Source: Phytophthora colocasiae (Eukaryota > Oomycota > Peronosporomycetes > Peronosporales > Peronosporaceae). From it: a DNA stretch of 64,000 bases. Both the position numbers and the translations under genes were made by a program. The stretch is from positions 186,001 to 250,000 of the forward strand of contig JAGKQI010000093.1 of the NCBI GenBank assembly GCA_018806915.1, written 5' to 3'. Below, piece after piece: positions 4,683-14,645 of this stretch; positions within the stretch are counted from its first letter, which is position 1, and the number at the start of each line of letters is the position of its first letter. Under the pieces are notes generated by a model. It had not been told where the DNA came from and did no database searches. It saw nothing but the letters and a program-made list of their open reading frames with translations.

Positions 4683-4984
4683 ATACTGGGCGCCGCCCAG
4701 TGGGCGGGGATAGATGCCGAGGATAAATTTTTGTAATAGATAGTCTAAAAGTAGAGATTATTTTCGTGATTTTGGGCGGCTACTCCGAATTACGACAAGG
4801 TTTTTTCGCCAAGTCCATTGACAGACCTCACTATTAGAAGCTTATCTCAACTCTGATTGGATACTACTGACCAATAAGCAAAAAGTAAGCGAAAGCAGGT
4901 GGTGACACTCCAGACCGATGGGAACATTGATTTCCCTACCCCCATAGCATACAAATTTCTATATAAAACTTATCCCAGCAAAGC

Positions 4985-5880
4985 TGGGATAACAGCGGTC
5001 GCCGGTGGGTTAATCCGACCGTCGTCTTCACCATACTGCGCCCCAACCTTCTGTGTGCGGAAGGCCAGCGGCGAGTGGCGGATCGTGCACGATTATCGTG
5101 GGCTCAACGCAAAGGTACGTGTGCCGGCCAACCCGATCCCCCGAAAGGACGAAATCCTCCGTGCAATGTCCCGTGGGCGCAGGTTCTCCGCGCTCAACTT
5201 ACTTTGGGGATTTTTTCAGGTGAAGCTGCGAGAGGATTCCATCCCATACACAGCGTTCTCCACACCTGATGGGCTGTTCGAATACCTGGTCACGCCAATG
5301 GGGATTTCCAGCAGCCCATCCTGCTTCAACCGGCTTGTGCAGTCCATCTTCAAGGACTTAAACACGTTCTGCCAGACATATTTTGACGACTTGTTCGTCT
5401 TCACCCCGTCGGACTCGGTCGAGGAGCACGTGGCCGCGCTCAGGAAGATGCTTACACGCTGCGCGGAGCAGCAGTTGTACGTCAAGATTGAGAAATGCGT
5501 TTTTTGCGCCCGCGAAATTCCGTGCTTGGTGATATTGTTGGGGTGGAGGGCGTGAAGATCGATCCAGCAAAGGCTGTAGTCATCCGGGACTGGCCGCTAC
5601 CCCAGACCAAGCGCGAGTTGCAGTCGTTTATCGGTACATGCGTGTACGTGAGCCGATTCTGTGCTGGCTTCGCTGAGCACGTCGCGGTGTTGACCGAGCT
5701 TGTGAATAACAAGCACCCCAAGGACCCGGTTTCCTTTCTCCGGAGCAGGAGCACGCGTTTGAGGCGCTCAAACGTAAGCTGCCCTCTACTCCGACTCTCG
5801 CCCATGCGGATTTCGATAAGCCATTCCACGTGAGCGTGGACGCCTCTGATTTTGCTGTTGGCGGATACTTATTCCAGTAC
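4985..5880 (+). pseudogene. Gypsy-1 reverse transcriptase and start of RNase H
   Basis: The reverse transcriptase fingers and palm are readable: the TFCVRK and WRIVHDYR blocks, then the active-site strand YFDDLF near 5380. The first catalytic Asp position, usually in a [ST]xxDL block, reads ALNLL here, so an Asp seems lost. Frameshifts occur near 5515 and 5760. The RNase H start VDASDFAVGGYLF runs into the insertion at 5881. The protein is not functional as read. Confidence 0.8.
5876..5880. repeat. Target-site duplication of Gypsy-2, left copy (AGTAC)
   Basis: AGTAC directly precedes the 5' LTR and is repeated directly after the 3' LTR at 12742-12746. Five bases is the usual Ty3/Gypsy duplication length. 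Confidence 0.95.
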
Positions 5881-6033
5881 TGTGACGGGCTTCTGTCACA
5901 CGGTCGCCGTGGTGCACGGCGACCAATTAGATTAGCTTGTGTTTTGTTGGTTCACGGCGCCCGACCCGGGCGCCACACAGATTCAATAGACAGAGTTTCA
6001 TTTACCACAAACAAGGAGCACCGCCCCGTTACA
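5881..6033 (+). repeat. 5' LTR of Gypsy-2 (153 bp)
   Basis: Starts TGTGACGGGC and ends CCGTTACA. It matches 12589-12741 at 152 of 153 positions, the only difference being T versus G at position 64. Transcription would start within it. Confidence 0.95.
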
Positions 6034-6035
6034 TC

Positions 6036-6050
6036 TGGTAGCACTTAGTA
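6036..6050 (+). promoter_or_regulatory. Primer-binding site of Gypsy-2 (putative)
   Basis: TGGTAGCACTTAGTA begins two bases after the 5' LTR. The leading TGG is what a tRNA 3' CCA end would pair with. I have not matched it to a specific tRNA. Confidence 0.5.
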
Positions 6051-6066
6051 GTCCGTCCACACGACC

Positions 6067-7116
6067 ATGAACGACGCTTCCTATTTCACTGAAGGGGCTG
6101 GTGCTGCCCTCGAGCATGCCAGCTTCCCCCACTTGTCCGCCTTCGAGTGGGAGGCGCTACACCGCCTTGCCGCGGTGTCCGGAGAAGGAGTCATCAAGAC
6201 CTTGCTGACTGCCGGAACGGAAGAAGATCAACGACTGGCTGCTCACGAGTTCATGGCGCGTGAGCTCGCCGACCTGCGTCGGCGTGCGACGACTCCCACG
6301 CCGACCAAGAACAAGACTGACATCGTGAAGCTCGATGTCTCCTGCTACAGTGGCGATGGCGCCGCTCGCCTCCAGCTGAACCGCTGGTTCTGCGAGATCG
6401 ACATCGCGATCGAAGCTCGGCAGCTGTCTACCGAGTTCGCTCGTACCCGGTTCCTTTTGTCCAAGTTGACTGGGAAGGCCAAGGAGTGGGCGCTCGGCAA
6501 GCTTGTAGCCGACCCCTCCTGCTTTCAAACGATGGAGTCACTAAAGAGCGATCTCCGCCTGGCCTTATACACCCCTCAAGACGAGCGTGTTCAACGCTCG
6601 GCGTTCCTCTCGCTAAAGCAGGGACGGATGTCCATGCTCGAGTACATCCAACGGGCTCGTCACTTGGTGTCGTGCATCACGACAAATCCGGTGGACATGG
6701 CGACTCAAGTCCATGTCTTTATCTCTGGCGTGAACGCTGGTTACCAGCGCTTCTATCTGACTCGGAAGACGCCCGACTCGCTGGAGGAAGCGTTTGAGAC
6801 AGCGCTGCGAGAAGACTACAGCGTGTCCGCCTCCGAGGCATTCTCTCTCACCAGACCTCCAACTACGGAGCCCGAGCCGATGGAGATTGACGCCATCCAA
6901 GATTATCGTGGTCGTCGGCATGACAGCTCGCCGACGACATCTGCCCGTCCAGCTCCGAATACTGGTCGCGGTTCACGCCCTCTTCGATGCTTTCGCTGTC
7001 GGAAACTCGGACACCGCGCGGCTGTGTGCCGCGCCCCTGCGCCGGTACTCGCACACGTTGTTGCCGCCGATGCGGATGATATGGTCGCCGACCCAAAAAA
7101 CGGCGACGACCAGTAG
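6067..7116 (+). CDS. gag: Gypsy-2 Gag (capsid and nucleocapsid)
   Basis: An intact 349-residue protein from ATG 6067 to TAG 7116, 33 bp after the 5' LTR. The middle (roughly residues 75-230) has the helical retrotransposon gag layout, including conserved Trp/Leu blocks (AKEWALGKL, LKQGRMSMLEY). A CCHC zinc knuckle lies at residues 308-321 (C-x2-C-x4-H-x4-C). It would form the particle shell and bind the genomic RNA. The stop codon is embedded in the hairpin of the frameshift signal described separately. This is the only undamaged ORF of the sense strand of the element. Confidence 0.9.
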   Translation: MNDASYFTEGAGAALEHASFPHLSAFEWEALHRLAAVSGEGVIKTLLTAGTEEDQRLAAHEFMARELADLRRRATTPTPTKNKTDIVKLDVSCYSGDGAARLQLNRWFCEIDIAIEARQLSTEFARTRFLLSKLTGKAKEWALGKLVADPSCFQTMESLKSDLRLALYTPQDERVQRSAFLSLKQGRMSMLEYIQRARHLVSCITTNPVDMATQVHVFISGVNAGYQRFYLTRKTPDSLEEAFETALREDYSVSASEAFSLTRPPTTEPEPMEIDAIQDYRGRRHDSSPTTSARPAPNTGRGSRPLRCFRCRKLGHRAAVCRAPAPVLAHVVAADADDMVADPKNGDDQ

Positions 7117-7135
7117 GTGCGGGGCGCCCTACTGG
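7095..7135 (+). promoter_or_regulatory. -1 programmed ribosomal frameshift signal at the gag/pol junction
   Basis: The heptamer A AAA AAC (7095-7101) sits in the correct gag register (CCA AAA AAC), 12 bases before the gag stop. After an 8-base spacer comes a hairpin. Eight perfect pairs (CCAGTAGG 7110-7117 with CCTACTGG 7128-7135) continue through one bulged T into three more G-C pairs closed by a GGG loop. Slipping back one base at AAC enters exactly the frame that encodes the protease. All three parts, spacing and register agree with known retroviral -1 sites. Activity itself is inferred. Confidence 0.85.
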
Positions 7136-10100
7136 ATGTGATGTGGAAGACGGATCTCTGGTGGCAGATCCTCCTCCCAGCCCCCCTGTGCTTCATGCGC
7201 AATTCTTTGCCACCACCTCCGGCAGTGATCCGAGACTGATCATCCTCAGTATACACGTCAATGGCGCGAAGCGTCCGCTTCGCGCCCTGCTGGATTCAGG
7301 CGCGACGAACAACTTCGTTCGCGCCGAGAGTTTGTCGGTGTTACCGGCGGACACGCGAGTTAGGGACGGCCCCGGCCACATGGTTGTAAAGTATGCTGAC
7401 GGAAAGCCGCGGCGTGTCCCGCGGCGTTCTGCCACCTTCTCTTACGAGTTCGACGGTTTCCATGGGTCCGATGACTTTCTGGTGATCGAGTTGAGCGGAT
7501 CCTTCGACTGTGTCTTCGGTATCCCGTGGCTTGCTCGTCACCAGCCTCATATTGACTGGTTGGCTCGAACCGTCCGCCCGCGCGACATTGATGTGAATGC
7601 GGTATTGACATCCCTGCGCGGGACGCCCAACCGATGGCCGCACGTTGCAGTCATGGACCCCAACCCATGACTCCCGCTGTATCCGAAGTGAGCGATGGCC
7701 CTTCGGGTGCTCGCGAGCCTGTGACGTGTGCCGGTCTTGAGCAGGTGACTCAAGACATGTCTGACGTGGTCGAGCATGAGTTCCCACGTCCCGATGAGCA
7801 GCGGCTCTCGGCAACAGACAACACCGTGGTAGAACCGGGTTCCCACGTCCCGATGAGCAGCGGCTCTCGGCAACAGACAACACCGTGGTCGAACAGGGGT
7901 TCCCACACCCGGATGAGCAGCGGCTCTCCGTTGACGATGAACAAGAAGATGTGGTTGAGCGTGGTCTCCCACGCGCGGTCGAGCAGGGGCTCCCGCATGT
8001 GGTTGAGCAGGGGCTCCCTGATAGAGTTGACGCCGATGTCGTGTCTCGGCGTTCGAGTACAGCAGACTTGGTCGAGCGTGGTCTCCCACCGCCTGCTACG
8101 GAAGTGTTTACCCGGCCAGTCCGTCGCCGTGGCCGTCGCAAGCCCCGGCGACCCCGCGTTCCTCCGAATGAGTCAGACGCGTCTGACTCCGAGGTTATCT
8201 CCGTTCTGGTGGGGATGACGCGGCATCGATCCCGCGAATGCACAATGTCGAAGTTGCACGCCCGCCGTGCGATGCATCAGAGATCACCAAGTTGCCTGGT
8301 CTGTCTTGGAAACACTTTCTCCGCGACTTGAAGCATGGTGAGATCGAGCAGGTTTGGTATGATCGTCGCGGACAACACCGCGACGATCGCGGCTGTCGAT
8401 GTAGACGCTGGTGACCCAGCGTCCAATACCCGGGAACGCCCGAAAGGCGCTGAGCTTAAGTCCGCCCGCGAGGCTCGCTACTTGGCTCAGTCGTTGCCGG
8501 CACTCGAAGCCGCCGGCAACCCAGTCGCCCCCCTGGTTCGCGAGTTCATCGACATCTTCCCTGATAAGGTGCCAGCCGCCCTTCCACCGGACCGCGGAGT
8601 CCGGACACGAGATCGACCTCGTGCCTGGTGCGAAGTATTGCGTGACGAGACAGTGGCCGCTTCCCCGTGATCAAGTCGAAGCAATCGACGCCTTCTTCGA
8701 GGGTCGCCGACAAGCCGGCCACGTCCGTGAGAGTTTGTCCCCGCACTCCAGTCCGACATTTTGCGTGAAGAAAGCAACCGGTGGATGGCGGATCGTCCAC
8801 GCCTTCAATAAGCTCAACGATGCCACCATCCCGGCGCAGAAGCCGATCCTGGGAGGAAAGACATGGTGCTCGACACCATGTCGGGCAGCACCACATACAG
8901 CGCGATTGATCTGATGGACGGCTTCTATCAGATCTTGATGCGGAGGATGACGTACCGCTGACTGCAGTCAGCACGCCCAGTGGAATGCTTTGGGAATGGC
9001 TTGTGATGCCTCAGGGGCTAAAGAATGCTCCTGCTACCTTCAACCGAATGGTGTCGAACTTGCTCCGCCCGTACCGGGACTTCGCGCCCAGCTACTTCGA
9101 TGACATTTTCATCCACAGCCGTGCTGAACGAGGCTTGACGGACGTCGAGGTGCATCTGCAACACCTGCGGCAGGTGTTCGAAGTGATGCGAGAGAACAAG
9201 CTGTACGCCAACTTGAAGAAGTGTATCTTCTGCGGTCCCGAGATCCCAGTGCTCGGGAGCTACGTCAGCAAGGAAGGTGTCCGTGCTGACCCCGAGAAGA
9301 TTGAAGCCATCTGCGCTTGGCCCGTGCCTCAGGATCAGAAGCAGCTCCGGCAGTGGCTGGGGCTCGCGACGTATCTTCACCATTACTCGAAGAACTTCGC
9401 GCTGACCATCCAACCGCTGTCTCAACTCCTGAAGGCAGACGCCATGTGGTCATGGCGCCCCGAGCACCAAACAGCCTTCGACGCGGTGAAGACGAGTTTG
9501 TCGACCGCGCCCGTCTTGATGCTTCCAGATCACTCCAAGCCGTTCCACGTTGTATGCGACGCGAGTGACTTCGCGATCGGCTGTGCCTTGATGCAGTTTG
9601 ACGACGTGGGCCGCGAGCGAGTGGTGAGTTACCAGTCGCGACAACTGAAGCAGGCGGAACGGAATTATCCGGTCCATGATAAAGAGCTGCTTGCCATGCG
9701 CTACGCACTCATCAAGTTCCGTGTGTATCTCCTAGGCGAGAAGTCCTTCGCAATCTACACAGATCACGCGTCGCTGAGGACAGCGACGAAGAGCCCCCAC
9801 TTGTCCCAGCGCATGGCACGCTGGTTATCGCTCTTCTCCGAGTACAACTTCGTCGTGCATTACAAACCGGGCAAGTCCAACATCCTCGCCGACGCGCTTT
9901 CACGCCGGCCAGATTACGTGCAGCGCGGCCGCCACGCAGTTGGCGACGAGGATGATGACGACTGTTCCGTCTGTATCGCCGAAAGCGTCGCTGCCGCTGA
10001 AGTCACAGCGACCACACCGCTACGTGACCTGATCGTCGACGCGTATAAAGATGACGCGTCCTGTTCCGAGCTGATCGACTTCCTGCGCAACCCCAGTGGC

Positions 10101-12043
10101 TCAGCTGAGCGCAAGCTGTCCTCACGAGCACGCGCTCGTGTCGGCCGCTACTCACTTGAAGGCGCGCTGCTGACTTACCGCGTCGACCAAGAAGATTGCC
10201 CCCGCGTCGTCGTCCCGCTTGACGACGACCTCCGAGCTCGGTTGATCCACGAGTTCCATGACACCCCAAGTGGCGGCCACCTCGGTCGCGAGAAGACCTT
10301 TGCATCTCTCTCTCGCGACTTTATTGGCCACACATGTACAAGTGGGTGAGGAAGTGGGTGCGCTCGTGTGAAGCGTGCCAGCGCGTGAAACCGGCTCCAT
10401 CAAAGCAGGCCCTGCTCCGACTGCTCTCAGTCGCCACTGATGCGTGGTCGTCTGTGAGCATGGATTTCGTCTTCGGCCTACCTCGGGATACCTGAGGTCG
10501 TACGGGTATTCTGGTCTTCGTCGACCGCTTCAGTAAGATGGTTCATCTCACCCCGGTAGCAGCCTCGATCACTGCGCAACAGTCTGCTGCGCTCTTCGTT
10601 GACGTGGTGTATCGCCACCACGGTCTTCCGTCCTCGATTGTGTCGGACAGGGATCCTCGATTCACGTCCGCCTTCTGGAGGGAGCTCTTCAAGCTGTTGG
10701 GGACGCGGCTGAGTATGTCCACCGCGTCGCATCCAGAGACGGACGGCCAAACCGAGCGCGCTAACCGAGTCGTCGAAGATGTACTACGCAGCTTTGCCAC
10801 GTCGTTCAAGTCATGGAGCTCTTTCCTGCCGATGGTGGAGTTCGCCATCAATAATGCCGTGCACGCGTCAACTGGCTTGACGCCGTTCTTCGTAAATTTC
10901 GGCCGTCACCCGCGCGTTCCGGCGCTCCTTGGGCTGGAGCGCCCCCTTCCAGTTCAACTGTCCGAGAATCACGACGCTGCAACTGCCACCCCCACTGGTG
11001 GTGCCTCCGTCGCGACGCACGAGATGGCCGCTGTCCCGAATGTGAACGCGGTGAGCACGAGGTCTTCCGCGCGGATCCCAAGCCAGCGTCCTCTTACACG
11101 GGCCGCCGCGCGAGCGGCGACTGCTTCTCCACGGGACGTTGCCGCTTGGACCAGTCGGACGCTAATCAACCCGCGTCCACGTCGCGCAGCCGAGCTTCAC
11201 ACTGCCCCCGATCCGGTCGCGCCTACTGAGCCTCCGCCAGCAAACTTTGCGCCCAACGCGGCGCCGCAGCGAAGCGACGCTGCGGCTGTCCGTGAGTTCG
11301 TGCAACAGCGTGAGTCAATTGTCCGCTACGTCCGCGATGCGATTGCTGCAGCCGTCGATCGCCAGAAGGAGAATGCCGACCGCAGCGGGCGCCGTAACAT
11401 GGAAACATTCCACGTTGGAGACCAGGTCCTATTATCTACCAATGGGATTTCCCCAACGCTCGTCACGAACTTGGGCGCGAGTAAGCTCGCGCCGCGATTC
11501 ATTGGACCGTTCAAGGTGTCGAAAGCCATTGGAGATGCTTATCGGCTACAGCTACCGCCTACAATCAAGCTACACCCTACATTTTACGTCGGTCGACTTC
11601 GCCGCTACCACCCAGCGTCGCTTCCTAGCGATAATCCGGTACCGCGTGACGCGGTACCCACAGCTCCTGCCGCAAGACCCGATTCTCATGCTCCAGCTGG
11701 TCAACGCGATGCTCCAGGCGCTCCAGGCGACGCTCCATCGCCCACTCGCGCTCGGTTCCTTCGCGACGGTCCGCCCCCCCTTGTTGATCGTGATGGTGAC
11801 GTTCGTCACATCGTGGAGGCCATTCTTGACCACGATGACTCGACCAGTGGTCGCAGCGCTCGTCACTGCGACGGGGGTATCCCGAGCTTTCGCCGGTACC
11901 TGGTACGGTGGATAGGTCCGCTGGACGACAGTTGGGAGCCTCGCTCCACCCTCCTCGAAGACGTTCCGGGCCTCGTTGAGGCGTACGAGGCGGCTCTGTT
12001 GGCGCGGGATGATCCTCAGGGCGCGGTAGCGAACCGCGCCTAG
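7101..12043 (+). pseudogene. pol: Gypsy-2 Pol: protease, RT, RNase H, integrase, chromodomain
   Basis: The protease has LLDSGATNNFV near 7290. A repeat-rich linker follows (7670-8330). Reverse transcriptase shows TFCVKK, WRIVH, the AIDLMDGFYQ block with its catalytic Asp, and YFDDIF near 9090. RNase H shows VCDASDFAIG, the KELLAMRYAL Glu, IYTDHASL and a final ADALSRR. Integrase has the HHCC zinc region (10245-10390) and a DDE core (MDFVFGLP, VSDRDPRF, TDGQTERANR). A chromodomain ends the protein (about 11780-12000) and would guide integration to modified histones. Frame breaks lie near 7660, 7850, 8320, 8590, 8845, 8945 and 10325, with a TGA at 10493-10495. It is non-functional as read. Confidence 0.9.
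7781..8030 (+). repeat. Tandem repeats coding for the protease-RT linker of Gypsy-2
   Basis: Units starting at 7781, 7840 and 7900 (59 and 60 bp apart) are nearly identical. They encode a Glu/Pro-rich motif of the type FPRPDEQRLS. Shorter degenerate units encoding VEQGLP-like steps continue to about 8030. The 59-bp unit lacks one G of a GGGG run, which breaks the frame. Confidence 0.85.
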
Positions 12044-12530
12044 CCTCGTACAGCGACCGGCGATACAGCTCGATCCACTGCTTCTCTTCCTTAGTCTCTG
12101 GATACTCTTTCACGATTTGCGCCCAGTCAGCGTCGCCCGGTCGCGGCGTTCCAAAGCGGCGACAGCCGGCGCAGCCTTCAAGGTGATGGACGTAACAGCA
12201 AGGACGATCCTCGTCCCAGGACAGCGAGCACACGCGCGCCGCCAGCTCTCCCAGCGCGTGGCGCTGATGGGTCTCCTCGCGGTCTTCTATTGTCGCCATG
12301 AAACGTCGCGCACCCTCTGCGTTCCAGCGTCGGACGAAGGCCGTCCACGCGGCATCAAGCGAGCGCTGGGTCACCGCGAGCGTCGCGGTGACGGGCTTGC
12401 CCCGCGTCGAACGCCAGCGTCGGAACAACTCTCGCATCTCGTCGGGACTCAGCGGGGCCTCGAAGCCACTGCAGTCGTGCAGCGGCCACTCTCGGAGAGT
12501 CTGTGCGTAGGTGTGGCTTGTGGTGTTCAT
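11625..12530 (-). CDS. Reverse-strand ORF of Gypsy-2: Cys/His-rich and leucine-zipper-like protein
   Basis: An uninterrupted 301-residue ORF starts with ATG at 12530, 58 bp inside the 3' LTR boundary. It runs against pol, overlapping its chromodomain end by about 420 bp. The first 160 residues lie outside pol and look like a folded domain, with a Cys/His cluster (CCYVHHLEGCAGC, about residues 111-123). The middle is Arg/Pro-rich. The end is a heptad-patterned coiled coil (about residues 268-293, Leu/Val spaced by three and four). Convergent accessory ORFs between pol and the 3' LTR are known from some plant Gypsy lineages. Its function is unknown; it may be a structural, regulatory or antisense product. 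Staying open while pol is broken is notable. Confidence 0.55.
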   Translation of the reverse strand: MNTTSHTYAQTLREWPLHDCSGFEAPLSPDEMRELFRRWRSTRGKPVTATLAVTQRSLDAAWTAFVRRWNAEGARRFMATIEDREETHQRHALGELAARVCSLSWDEDRPCCYVHHLEGCAGCRRFGTPRPGDADWAQIVKEYPETKEEKQWIELYRRSLYEARRGSLPRPEDHPAPTEPPRTPQRGPERLRGGWSEAPNCRPADLSTVPGTGESSGYPRRSDERCDHWSSHRGQEWPPRCDERHHHDQQGGADRREGTEREWAMERRLERLEHRVDQLEHENRVLRQELWVPRHAVPDYR

Positions 12531-12574
12531 CGTGAAGCAATTTGAAGATTGAGAAGCTCTTCAGGCTTCTTTCT

Positions 12575-12588
12575 AAGGTGGGGAGTGG
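12575..12588 (+). promoter_or_regulatory. Polypurine tract of Gypsy-2
   Basis: AAGGTGGGGAGTGG abuts the 3' LTR, the expected place and composition for the plus-strand primer. Confidence 0.7.
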
Positions 12589-12741
12589 TGTGACGGGCTT
12601 CTGTCACACGGTCGCCGTGGTGCACGGCGACCAATTAGATTAGCTTGTGTTGTGTTGGTTCACGGCGCCCGACCCGGGCGCCACACAGATTCAATAGACA
12701 GAGTTTCATTTACCACAAACAAGGAGCACCGCCCCGTTACA
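12589..12741 (+). repeat. 3' LTR of Gypsy-2 (153 bp)
   Basis: Starts TGTGACGGGC and ends CCGTTACA. It differs from the 5' LTR at one base and is followed directly by the AGTAC target duplication. Confidence 0.95.
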
Positions 12742-12746
12742 AGTAC
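12742..12746. repeat. Target-site duplication of Gypsy-2, right copy (AGTAC)
   Basis: Second copy of the 5-bp duplication. It restores the codons of the split Gypsy-1 RNase H. Confidence 0.95.
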
Positions 12747-14645
12747 GATGATAAGGGAGCGGAACGTATCATCGCGTATGGAGGTAGAAAGCTCTCACGA
12801 GCGGAGCTCATATACCCTACACGAGAAAAGGAGCTCCTAGCCGCATTGCACGCAATGCGTACCTGGAAGGTGTACCTACTGGACAAGCCGTTCTATCTCA
12901 ACACGGATCACCGCACAATTGATTCGTTGTTGCAGCAGCAGACGTGCTCGCAACGCCTGGCCCGATGGTTAAACGAGCTGGCGCTTTTCCAACCTCGCTT
13001 TAAGTGGGTTGCCGGCAGTACAAATACCATCCCCGACAGCGTCTCCAGGCGGCTGGACTGGTCCGATGGCACGAGCCGTGCAATAAGCCTTTCAAAACTT
13101 CTCCTCCAGCTTACCTCCACCGACGCGGACACCGAGGAGGCAAGTCTGTTTGCGATACAGACGTCCCATTCGGTCGACGTCCTGGAGTTGTGCAGGCAGC
13201 ACTACAACAAGGACGCTGGCTTCGGCCCAATTCTGAAGGACCTCCTCGCCGACAACGACACTAGATCGCGGCGACTTCGACTTCTCCATAGCGGACGGTC
13301 TGTTGTATTTTCAAGTGCGCTCTGATGCACCTCGGCGATTGTGTATCCCCGACATACCGGAACTGCGCAACTTAATCCTCTACGAGGAGCACGATTCCCC
13401 CGCGCGTGGACATCCCGGCCAGGCGAAGACACTTCTACTCCTACTGGAAAAATACTACTGGCGTGGTATGGCTGAATCCGTGCAGCGCTACGTTTCATCT
13501 TGCGAGCTCTGCCAGCGGCATTAGTATATCCGAGGCAAGCCCGCTGGTCCCCTGCATCCTCTGGAGATACCTGCCAATCGGTGGACGGATATCAGTATGG
13601 ACTTCATTACCCAGCTCCCGCTGACAGCTTCCGGCCACGACGCAGTGATCGTCATTTTCGATCGCCTTACGAAGCGTGGCCACTTCGTGGCTTCCCGAAC
13701 GGATGCGACGGCGGAAGACACAGCTCGACTATTCTGCGAGTTCGACCAGCGTCTACACGGGATCCCTGAATCGATTGTGTCTGACCGCGACACAAAGTTC
13801 ACTTCAAGGCTGTGGCAACAGATCATGCAGCTTCAGGAGACTCACCTGCAATTGAGCTCCGCCTTCCGACCGTCAACGGATGGACAGTCGGAAGTCACGA
13901 TTAAATTCGTGAACGAGTACATCCGGCATTTCGTCAACCCGCATCACGATGACTGGGACACACTCCTCGCGCTCTGCGAGTTTGCTTTCAATTCACGCAC
14001 TCACAGCACGACGGGTATGTCTTCATTCATGGCCGATTTGGGATATCAGCCCCGTTCCGTTGCTGACTGTGTGGTTCCAACATCTCGCCAGACTGCCGCG
14101 GCGAAATTCGTCACTCACCAGAAGGTCATTTTGACTGAGGCCCAGGACGCAATGGCTGCTGCTCAACAGCGTTGGCACGCCGCTTATGATCGAAATCGTC
14201 CACAGTTGATATTCACAATATGAGACAAGGTGCTTCTGAACACTAAGAATCTCGACTTGGCGCACCTCGGCACGGACGGCAAGCGCAAGTTCCCTACCAA
14301 ATCACCGCACAGACAAGCCCTGACACGTACAAGCTCGTGCTGCCGCCCGGACTACGCCTACATTCGGAATATCACGTGTCTCGACTTCGCCCATACCAAC
14401 ACGATGACGATCCTGCGCGGATCACGCGCCTTCAACCGGTGCTGACAACGGATGGTACTGAGGGTCACCTTGTTCACTCGATTCTGGGCCATCGGCGACG
14501 TAACGGTGTTCGTCAATTTAAGGTGAAGTGGCTCGACACTTCACTTGGTTCGTCATGGGAACCGTCGAGCAATTTGACTCAAGTCATTGAGCTGATTCGA
14601 CAATACATCGAAACGCTTCCTGCTACACGAGCAACAGGCTTCTAA
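12742..14645 (+). pseudogene. Gypsy-1 RNase H remainder, integrase and chromodomain
   Basis: RNase H resumes with RAELIYPTREKELLAALHAM, TDHRTIDSLL and a DSVSRRLD end. Integrase follows with its zinc region (H at about 13389 and 13413, then CELC near 13500). The DDE core shows DFITQL, VSDRDTKF and a Glu in TDGQSEV. The SH3-like and chromodomain tail ends at 14645 (KVKWLDTSLGSSWEPSSNL). Frameshifts near 13290 and 14260 and stops near 13522 and 14221 make it non-functional. It is of the same general class as Gypsy-2 but clearly a different, older family. Confidence 0.85.

Follow-up and report, generated by a model that had tools for sequence, protein, structure and literature searches.

A candidate programmed -1 ribosomal frameshift signal at the gag-pol junction of Ty3/Gypsy retrotransposons in Phytophthora colocasiae

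Analysis of a 64,000-nucleotide stretch of the Phytophthora colocasiae genome (assembly GCA_018806915.1, contig JAGKQI010000093.1, positions 186,001 to 250,000 of the forward strand; the whole stretch is called the window below, and positions are counted from its first letter) revealed a Ty3/Gypsy long terminal repeat (LTR) retrotransposon at 5881-12741, whose gag and pol genes meet in what is very probably a programmed -1 ribosomal frameshift signal. This reading had been put forward in an original prediction made from the letters of the window, and the comparison of copies and families strongly supports it. The features that bear on it directly are the anatomy of the junction, the register and spacing of its parts, their recurrence in many copies and several families, a conservation of nucleotides beyond that of the coding sequence, and the exchange of one canonical heptamer for another.

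The gag-pol junction

The junction is formed by a slippery heptamer, a spacer and a candidate stimulatory hairpin, all on the forward strand. The heptamer A_AAA_AAC occupies 7095-7101, with the codons AAA (7096) and AAC (7099) in the gag register, and 12 bases separate its end from the gag stop TAG (7114-7116). It is followed by a spacer of 8 nt (7102-7109) and by the hairpin (7110-7135; -16.3 kcal/mol), which is composed of eight pairs (CCAGTAGG/CCTACTGG), a U bulge at 7118, three further pairs (GCG/CGC) and a GGG triloop. A candidate structure 8 nt 3' of the heptamer lies within the distance of about 5-9 nt expected of -1 signals, and the gag stop is buried inside the 5' arm of the hairpin. 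The length of the spacer and the place of the stop are identical in families A to E of this genome (the labels are this study's own: A, that of the window; A2; B; C, with GGGGAAC; D; E, with GGGAAAC). The original prediction had named each of these parts, including the three G-C pairs over the bulge, and they were recovered base for base at the positions given here; a second in-register heptamer, C_CCA_AAA at 7092, which overlaps the first, was absent from it.

The -1 frame of pol opens at 7080, overlaps gag by 37 nt, stays open to 7670 and carries the protease motif LDSGAT from 7290; a -1 slip thus enters the protease frame, likewise as predicted. Because the first ATG of the pol frame (7380) follows the protease motif, no start of pol is possible at an upstream AUG of its own frame. 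Read-through of the gag stop was rejected as a route to pol, since the two genes are in different frames.

According to the proposed mechanism, most ribosomes would end gag at the TAG inside the hairpin, and a minority would pause at the hairpin with AAA in the P site and AAC in the A site. Both tRNAs would then slip back by one base onto AAA AAA, and translation would go on in the -1 frame through protease, reverse transcriptase and integrase, so that Gag and Gag-Pol would be made at a fixed ratio from one message. The trans-frame peptide of the window junction would read ...ADPKK followed by RRRPVGAGRPTG..., and in families with G_GGA_AAC double tRNA slippage would likewise lead into pol. 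The slipping of the ribosome, its frequency and the production of Gag-Pol are what we infer from the features described.

A canonical heptamer was defined as X_XXY_YYZ, where Y is A or T and Z is not G, and both strands of the window were counted. At the density of the 161 heptamers found, the 12 in-register positions where the frames overlap should hold 0.015 by chance. A stem of 8 or more perfect base pairs 4-10 nt downstream accompanies 2 of these 161 (and 136 of 25,589 sampled positions). The earlier claim that the parts were unlikely to agree by chance is in line with these counts. The strength of the signal lies in register, spacing and conservation, rather than in fold energy.

Recurrence in the genome

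The genome searched comprises 92.5 Mb in 105 contigs. The stretch 6900-7600 of the window has at least 41 matches in it, taken as 40 loci, and the exact 26-nt hairpin is present in 31 of them. A single change is carried by L031, L034, L035 and L040, two changes by L036 and L038, and a 13-nt deletion by L029; the match stops within the hairpin in L037 and short of the junction in L039. A run of six A, no more and no fewer, was counted at 25 of the 34 family A junctions scored and at 18 of 27 in family B, and gag is in the 0 frame and pol in the -1 frame in all families examined. The original prediction had expected other copies to keep the heptamer, the pairing and the two frames, and this is what the majority does.

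Pattern searches extended the signal to other Gypsy families. The outer 7-bp stem pattern occurs at 740 places in the genome, compared with 1 for a reversed-pattern control, gag and pol having been checked at only part of the 740. The heptamer AAAAAAC, followed by 8 nt and the stem start CCAGTAGG / CCAGTAG, was found at 293 places with at most one mismatch (control 7). With 8 nt and CCAGTAG, GGGAAAC was found at 329 places (control 0) and GGGGAAC at 64 (control 1), the spacer of the latter being of the family C type in 63 and of the family E type in one. A canonical heptamer stands in the gag register in families B, D and E and in most distant families, and does not in family C. Related families have one canonical heptamer in place of another (AAAAAAC or GGGAAAC), with the register unchanged.

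Retrieval by the protease was added because families B, C and E had first been met through the stem. From the best 150 of 151 protease matches 100 were retained, the other 50 being of family A and D types and set aside. On contigs 1-36, where the exact-match list is complete enough to compare, there are 47 of the 100, and 42 of these 47 have an exact heptamer, 8 nt and CCAGTAG(G) upstream, the hairpin having played no part in the retrieval. The remaining 53 are located on later contigs, 34 of them outside the exact-match list, and 16 of these 34 were fetched (L105-L120).

Retrieval by Gag yielded 18 further loci (L081-L098), hand-picked from the 150 Gag matches listed. In 13 of them, one belonging to family E, a heptamer is located near the end of gag and pol is open in the -1 frame. 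One distant group has G_GGA_AAC with the stem CC[AG]CG..CGTGG; another has AAAAAAC (AAAAAAT in L094) with stems such as GCTCGGTAGGT/ACCTACCGAGC or GGCTCGGTGGGTT/AACCCACCGGGCC. Stems were scanned in 12 of the 13 loci: in seven of the 12 at most 2 of 300 shuffles were as stable, and in the other five 12 to 33 were. Some Gag matches lie in open frames of more than 1,000 amino acids (aa), which represent Gypsy elements that may need no shift there.

Altogether the junction was placed in 96 of 120 loci, the other 24 being distant families, copies with insertions or deletions, or copies lacking the junction. At L059:1417-1457 (reverse strand, a family B copy) the 26-nt hairpin appears inverted relative to its flanks, which is what an intrastrand template switch in a palindromic stem would give.

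Conservation of the hairpin

In their aligned parts, the Gag proteins of families B to E are 25-55% identical to that of the window family and the Pol proteins 30-63%, and 22-25 of the 26 hairpin bases are identical. The hairpin is more conserved than the surrounding coding sequence, and its GGG loop is nearly invariant. Both facts would also suit a different explanation, in which the segment has another DNA or RNA role (packaging, dimerisation, host factor binding) or encodes the N-terminal Pol peptide PVGAGRPTG, frameshifting being incidental. A peptide constraint would free the fourfold degenerate sites. With one copy taken from each family (five sequences), the four fourfold sites of the hairpin that are not constrained by gag coding were identical in every one of the 10 family pairs. 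Outside the hairpin, the same ten comparisons gave an identical third base at 216 of the 713 fourfold codons shared. Four fourfold sites are thus invariant across families, and therefore a conserved Pol peptide does not explain the conservation of the hairpin. A role outside decoding would leave unexplained the constant 8-nt distance to a heptamer in the gag register, as well as the exchange of AAAAAAC for GGGAAAC and the different hairpins found at the equal place. In Rfam, the only matches with an E-value of 1 or less were two that scored far below the gathering threshold. This alternative is considered highly improbable.

Variation at the fourfold sites is confined to hairpin positions 9 and 18, which lie opposite one another and read U/C, C/U, G/C, U/A and C/G in families A to E, respectively. 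They are the most variable sites of the hairpin and pair in families C, D and E. In A and B position 9 can pair with position 17; the lowest-energy form of A bulges position 9 instead. The pair 8-19 is G-C, but A-U in family E. The original prediction had proposed comparing the junction across copies and looking for compensatory changes. In this genome most copies keep the hairpin and its spacing, as anticipated; compensatory changes are few and the formal tests are mixed. A conserved pseudoknot, with a GGGG loop pairing to downstream C runs, was tried as well and found no support, families B and E having no CCC in the 34 nt after the stem when read by eye.

Gag proteins of other species

The comparison across species was made with proteins only. 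The sequence CCAGTAGNNGCGGGGCNNNCTACTGG had no exact match in the collections of viral contigs and genome contigs. The closest proteins to the window element are from Phytophthora (P. citrophthora belongs to the Peronosporales). Among the best 120 of 247 Gag homologs of family A, 44 end in KNxxxQ and 4 in K[TIH]xxxQ; a zinc knuckle is present near the end of 56 of the 120, and 46 of these 56 finish in K[NTIH]xxxQ. Proteins with Gag ends as predicted from the signal include those of Peronospora matthiolae and Hyaloperonospora. For family E, 62 of the best 120 of 246 homologs are 285-346 aa long, and of these 62, 24 end in GNxxxQ and 12 in ENxxxQ.

A further 17 proteins among the best 120 of family A match the translated hairpin signature in the -1 (7), +1 (7) or 0 frame (3), and most of them are Phytophthora records. 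Gene models that extend across the junction may account for them, and the junction may in this way explain a problem of annotation.

Contrary evidence and alternative explanations

The observations gathered here weigh against a frameshift signal; those on the other side are given where they bear on the same point. The fold energy of the 59-nt stretch is modest (z = -1.77, with 7 of 200 shuffles folding equally well), and a 26-mer as stable as the hairpin turned up 17 times among 2,234 sampled from the element and 10 times among 9,140 from the window.

Formal covariation is weak, because most hairpin pairs hardly vary. It was measured in an alignment of 22 of 44 distinct junctions, hand-chosen to cover the various families along with some damaged copies still in register; the junctions omitted include L059, L068 and L112 (out of register), variants in the spacer or A run only, and copies with one change, for example L069 and L119. 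The model set by hand was the better one; a double change was observed in 2 of its 11 pairs, and the number of double-changed pairs was reached by 288 of 500 shuffles and that of pair types by 412 of 500. Sliding the partners by -1 gave a covariation score of 0.120 vs 0.071 and 3 double-changed pairs vs 2. The minimum free energy model of the window itself was no better than shuffles by five measures (176 to 390 of 500), and the RNAalifold covariation term of +0.17 gave no support. On the other side, the percentage paired and the double-change cells of the hand-set model were each reached by 11 of 500 shuffles and its score by 9 of 500, and after the slide only 41% of cells pair, compared with 90.5% unslid.

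Many family members were first found with a pattern containing the stem, and the invariance of the outer stem is partly selected. Among the five protease matches of the 47 without the exact signal, L101, L102 and L104 retain the stem but have fewer A in the run, L068 is a degenerate family C copy, and nothing was found at L103. In the 16 further loci fetched, the exact AAAAAAC signal is present in 9. Twelve Gag proteins of the E type from other species (P0139, P0145 and others) end in E-N-x-x-x-Q, which is impossible from G_GGA_AAC and would need a different heptamer, perhaps one like GGAAAAC.

The A run is other than six in 9 of 34 family A junctions (lengths 4, 5, 7 and 8) and in 9 of 27 of family B. 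A homopolymer of this kind, and its variation in family A, could be expected if RNA polymerase (or reverse transcriptase) slipped on A6, adding an A to some messages and so fusing gag and pol. Seven As are found in L007 and L037, and the gag of L007 reads straight into the pol frame. The neighbouring C6 run is also variable, in 5 of 28 copies vs 7 at the A run, so that the variation appears to reflect mutation of homopolymers in general, or errors of assembly. Polymerase slippage, which needs no hairpin at a set distance, would not be expected in families E and C, where runs of only A3 or G4 occur with hairpin and spacing unchanged. Since these families lack a long A run, this main rival is weakened, and it is regarded as very unlikely.

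A pol-frame ATG precedes the protease motif in families B and D, and some public Phytophthora gene models, the 17 proteins mentioned above, cross the junction in other frames. Both would fit a Pol made from a message in which the gag stop is spliced out, or from a start of its own. No such ATG lies upstream of the protease motif within the open pol frame in the copies examined from families A, A2, C and E. The joint presence of heptamer, register and hairpin would be left unexplained by either mechanism, and this route is considered extremely improbable.

Within the reading as a frameshift signal, family C is the least regular. Its heptamer G_GGG_AAC (for instance in L047 and L050) falls outside X_XXY_YYZ, and the two copies examined have no canonical heptamer in the 55-nt overlap, yet pol is in the -1 frame and is open for hundreds of codons in single copies. 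The fetched family C copies L108 and L109 differ at the heptamer. For slippage in this family, tRNA-Asn would have to accept G-U as its first pair, or the P-site tRNA would have to slip alone. A wider and more tentative proposal, which as a whole we think possible rather than probable, is that many Gypsy families of the Peronosporales share one ancient recoding cassette. The hairpin with its buried gag stop would be the slowest-evolving part of the element and the heptamer would be exchanged, one family shifting on G_GGG_AAC with tRNA-Gly fully re-paired on GGG and tRNA-Asn held weakly, or with the P-site slip alone. The conservation of the hairpin would then hint at a second constraint, for instance a host factor or an exact ratio of Gag to Gag-Pol.

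The element and its surroundings

The element is located on the forward strand, between two copies of the target-site duplication AGTAC (5876-5880 and 12742-12746, both in the printed sequence). Its 5' LTR (5881-6033, 153 bp, TGTGA...TTACA) is identical to the 3' LTR (12589-12741) at 152 of 153 positions of the LTR alignment. The gag open reading frame (ORF; 6067-7116, 0 frame) encodes 349 aa with Pfam matches to Ty3_capsid and Retrotrans_gag above the cut-off. The frame entered by the shift contains the start of pol, and later domains are found in separate ORFs by Pfam: the reverse transcriptase (RT) part, RNase H and the integrase zinc-binding domain at 8985-10349, where stops and frame changes interrupt the copy, and the C-terminal part of integrase with SH3_Tf2-1 at 10538-12043. 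The order Ty3_capsid, RVT_1, RNase H, Integrase_H2C2 and SH3_Tf2-1 is that of Gypsy elements. The protease of this copy was recognised by the motif LDSGAT alone, with no Pfam match, and the integrase core had no Pfam match in the two pol pieces scanned. The Chromo domain, a mark of chromoviruses, has a weak match in 10538-12043 (22.4 bits, below the cut-off of 25.1). The element is recent, because its LTRs are nearly identical and AGTAC is present on both flanks, yet the copy is not intact: its pol is broken, the frame entered by the shift being open only to 7670.

The studied element is inserted in a second Gypsy-like element, which is split into 4899-5833 and 12645-14645, AGTAC being doubled at the joints. 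This outer element has its RT part at 4899-5555, RNase H at 12645-13325 and, at 13597-14223, an integrase-core match that is weak (20 bits, cut-off 32.6). Near the start of its RT ORF, AAATTTC at 4953 is followed by the perfect stem CTTATCCCAGC..GCTGGGATAA; worked out by hand, this heptamer is out of register with the ORF. No tRNA was found in the window by ARAGORN.

Comparison with known systems

No description of gag-pol frameshifting in oomycete elements was found among the open papers listed in the searches, subscription journals being mostly outside that scope; the original prediction likewise knew of none. Work on Phytophthora Gypsy elements and a 2003 survey of gag-pol recoding reportedly exist and could hold an earlier description. 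The codon usage of Phytophthora Gypsy elements and a copia-like Pol sequence of P. infestans are mentioned in the portion of PMC6875170 consulted. Each of the words Phytophthora and oomycete occurs once in the full text of PMC5009743; in the examined part of that article neither of them, nor GGGGAAC, was found.

The signal proposed here would extend a textbook form of translational control to the retrotransposons of oomycetes, a group rich in plant pathogens. One genome offers hundreds of naturally occurring versions, built on three heptamers and several hairpins, from which the requirements of a frameshift stimulator could be tested directly.

Yeast Ty3, likewise of the Ty3/Gypsy type, also keeps gag and pol in separate frames, but it uses a +1 frameshift, in contrast to the -1 shift proposed here. 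The gag stop of HIV-1 is not known to lie within the 5' arm of its lower stem. The HIV-1 gag-pol signal is similar in combining a heptamer with a stem-loop rather than a pseudoknot, and differs in its heptamer U_UUU_UUA and in where the structure starts, according to the sections of PMC4598141 used.

PEG10, derived from a Ty3/Gypsy element (PMC5009743, in part), shifts on G_GGA_AAC (excerpts of PMC4598141 and PMC2800197), the heptamer of family E. Unlike the junctions described here, where an 8-nt spacer in families A to E leads to an apparently plain hairpin burying the gag stop, PEG10 has a 5-nt spacer and a pseudoknot (PMC2800197, in the part available); read by eye, the five families share no C run downstream with which the loop could pair. 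Among the animal retroelements surveyed in 2003, 28 of 51 have pol in the -1 frame, many with classical heptamers, and both AAAAAAC and GGGAAAC are among the shiftiest with mammalian ribosomes (both from the examined part of PMC5009743). The animal LTR retrotransposons thus resemble the present elements in frame and heptamers; the differences are the oomycete host, one hairpin shared by several families, and its presence at hundreds of places in the genome. This kind of signal is already known, since -1 signals with these heptamers occur in retroviruses, animal LTR elements and PEG10, whereas the conservation across many families and the exchange of the heptamer may be the parts likely to surprise specialists.
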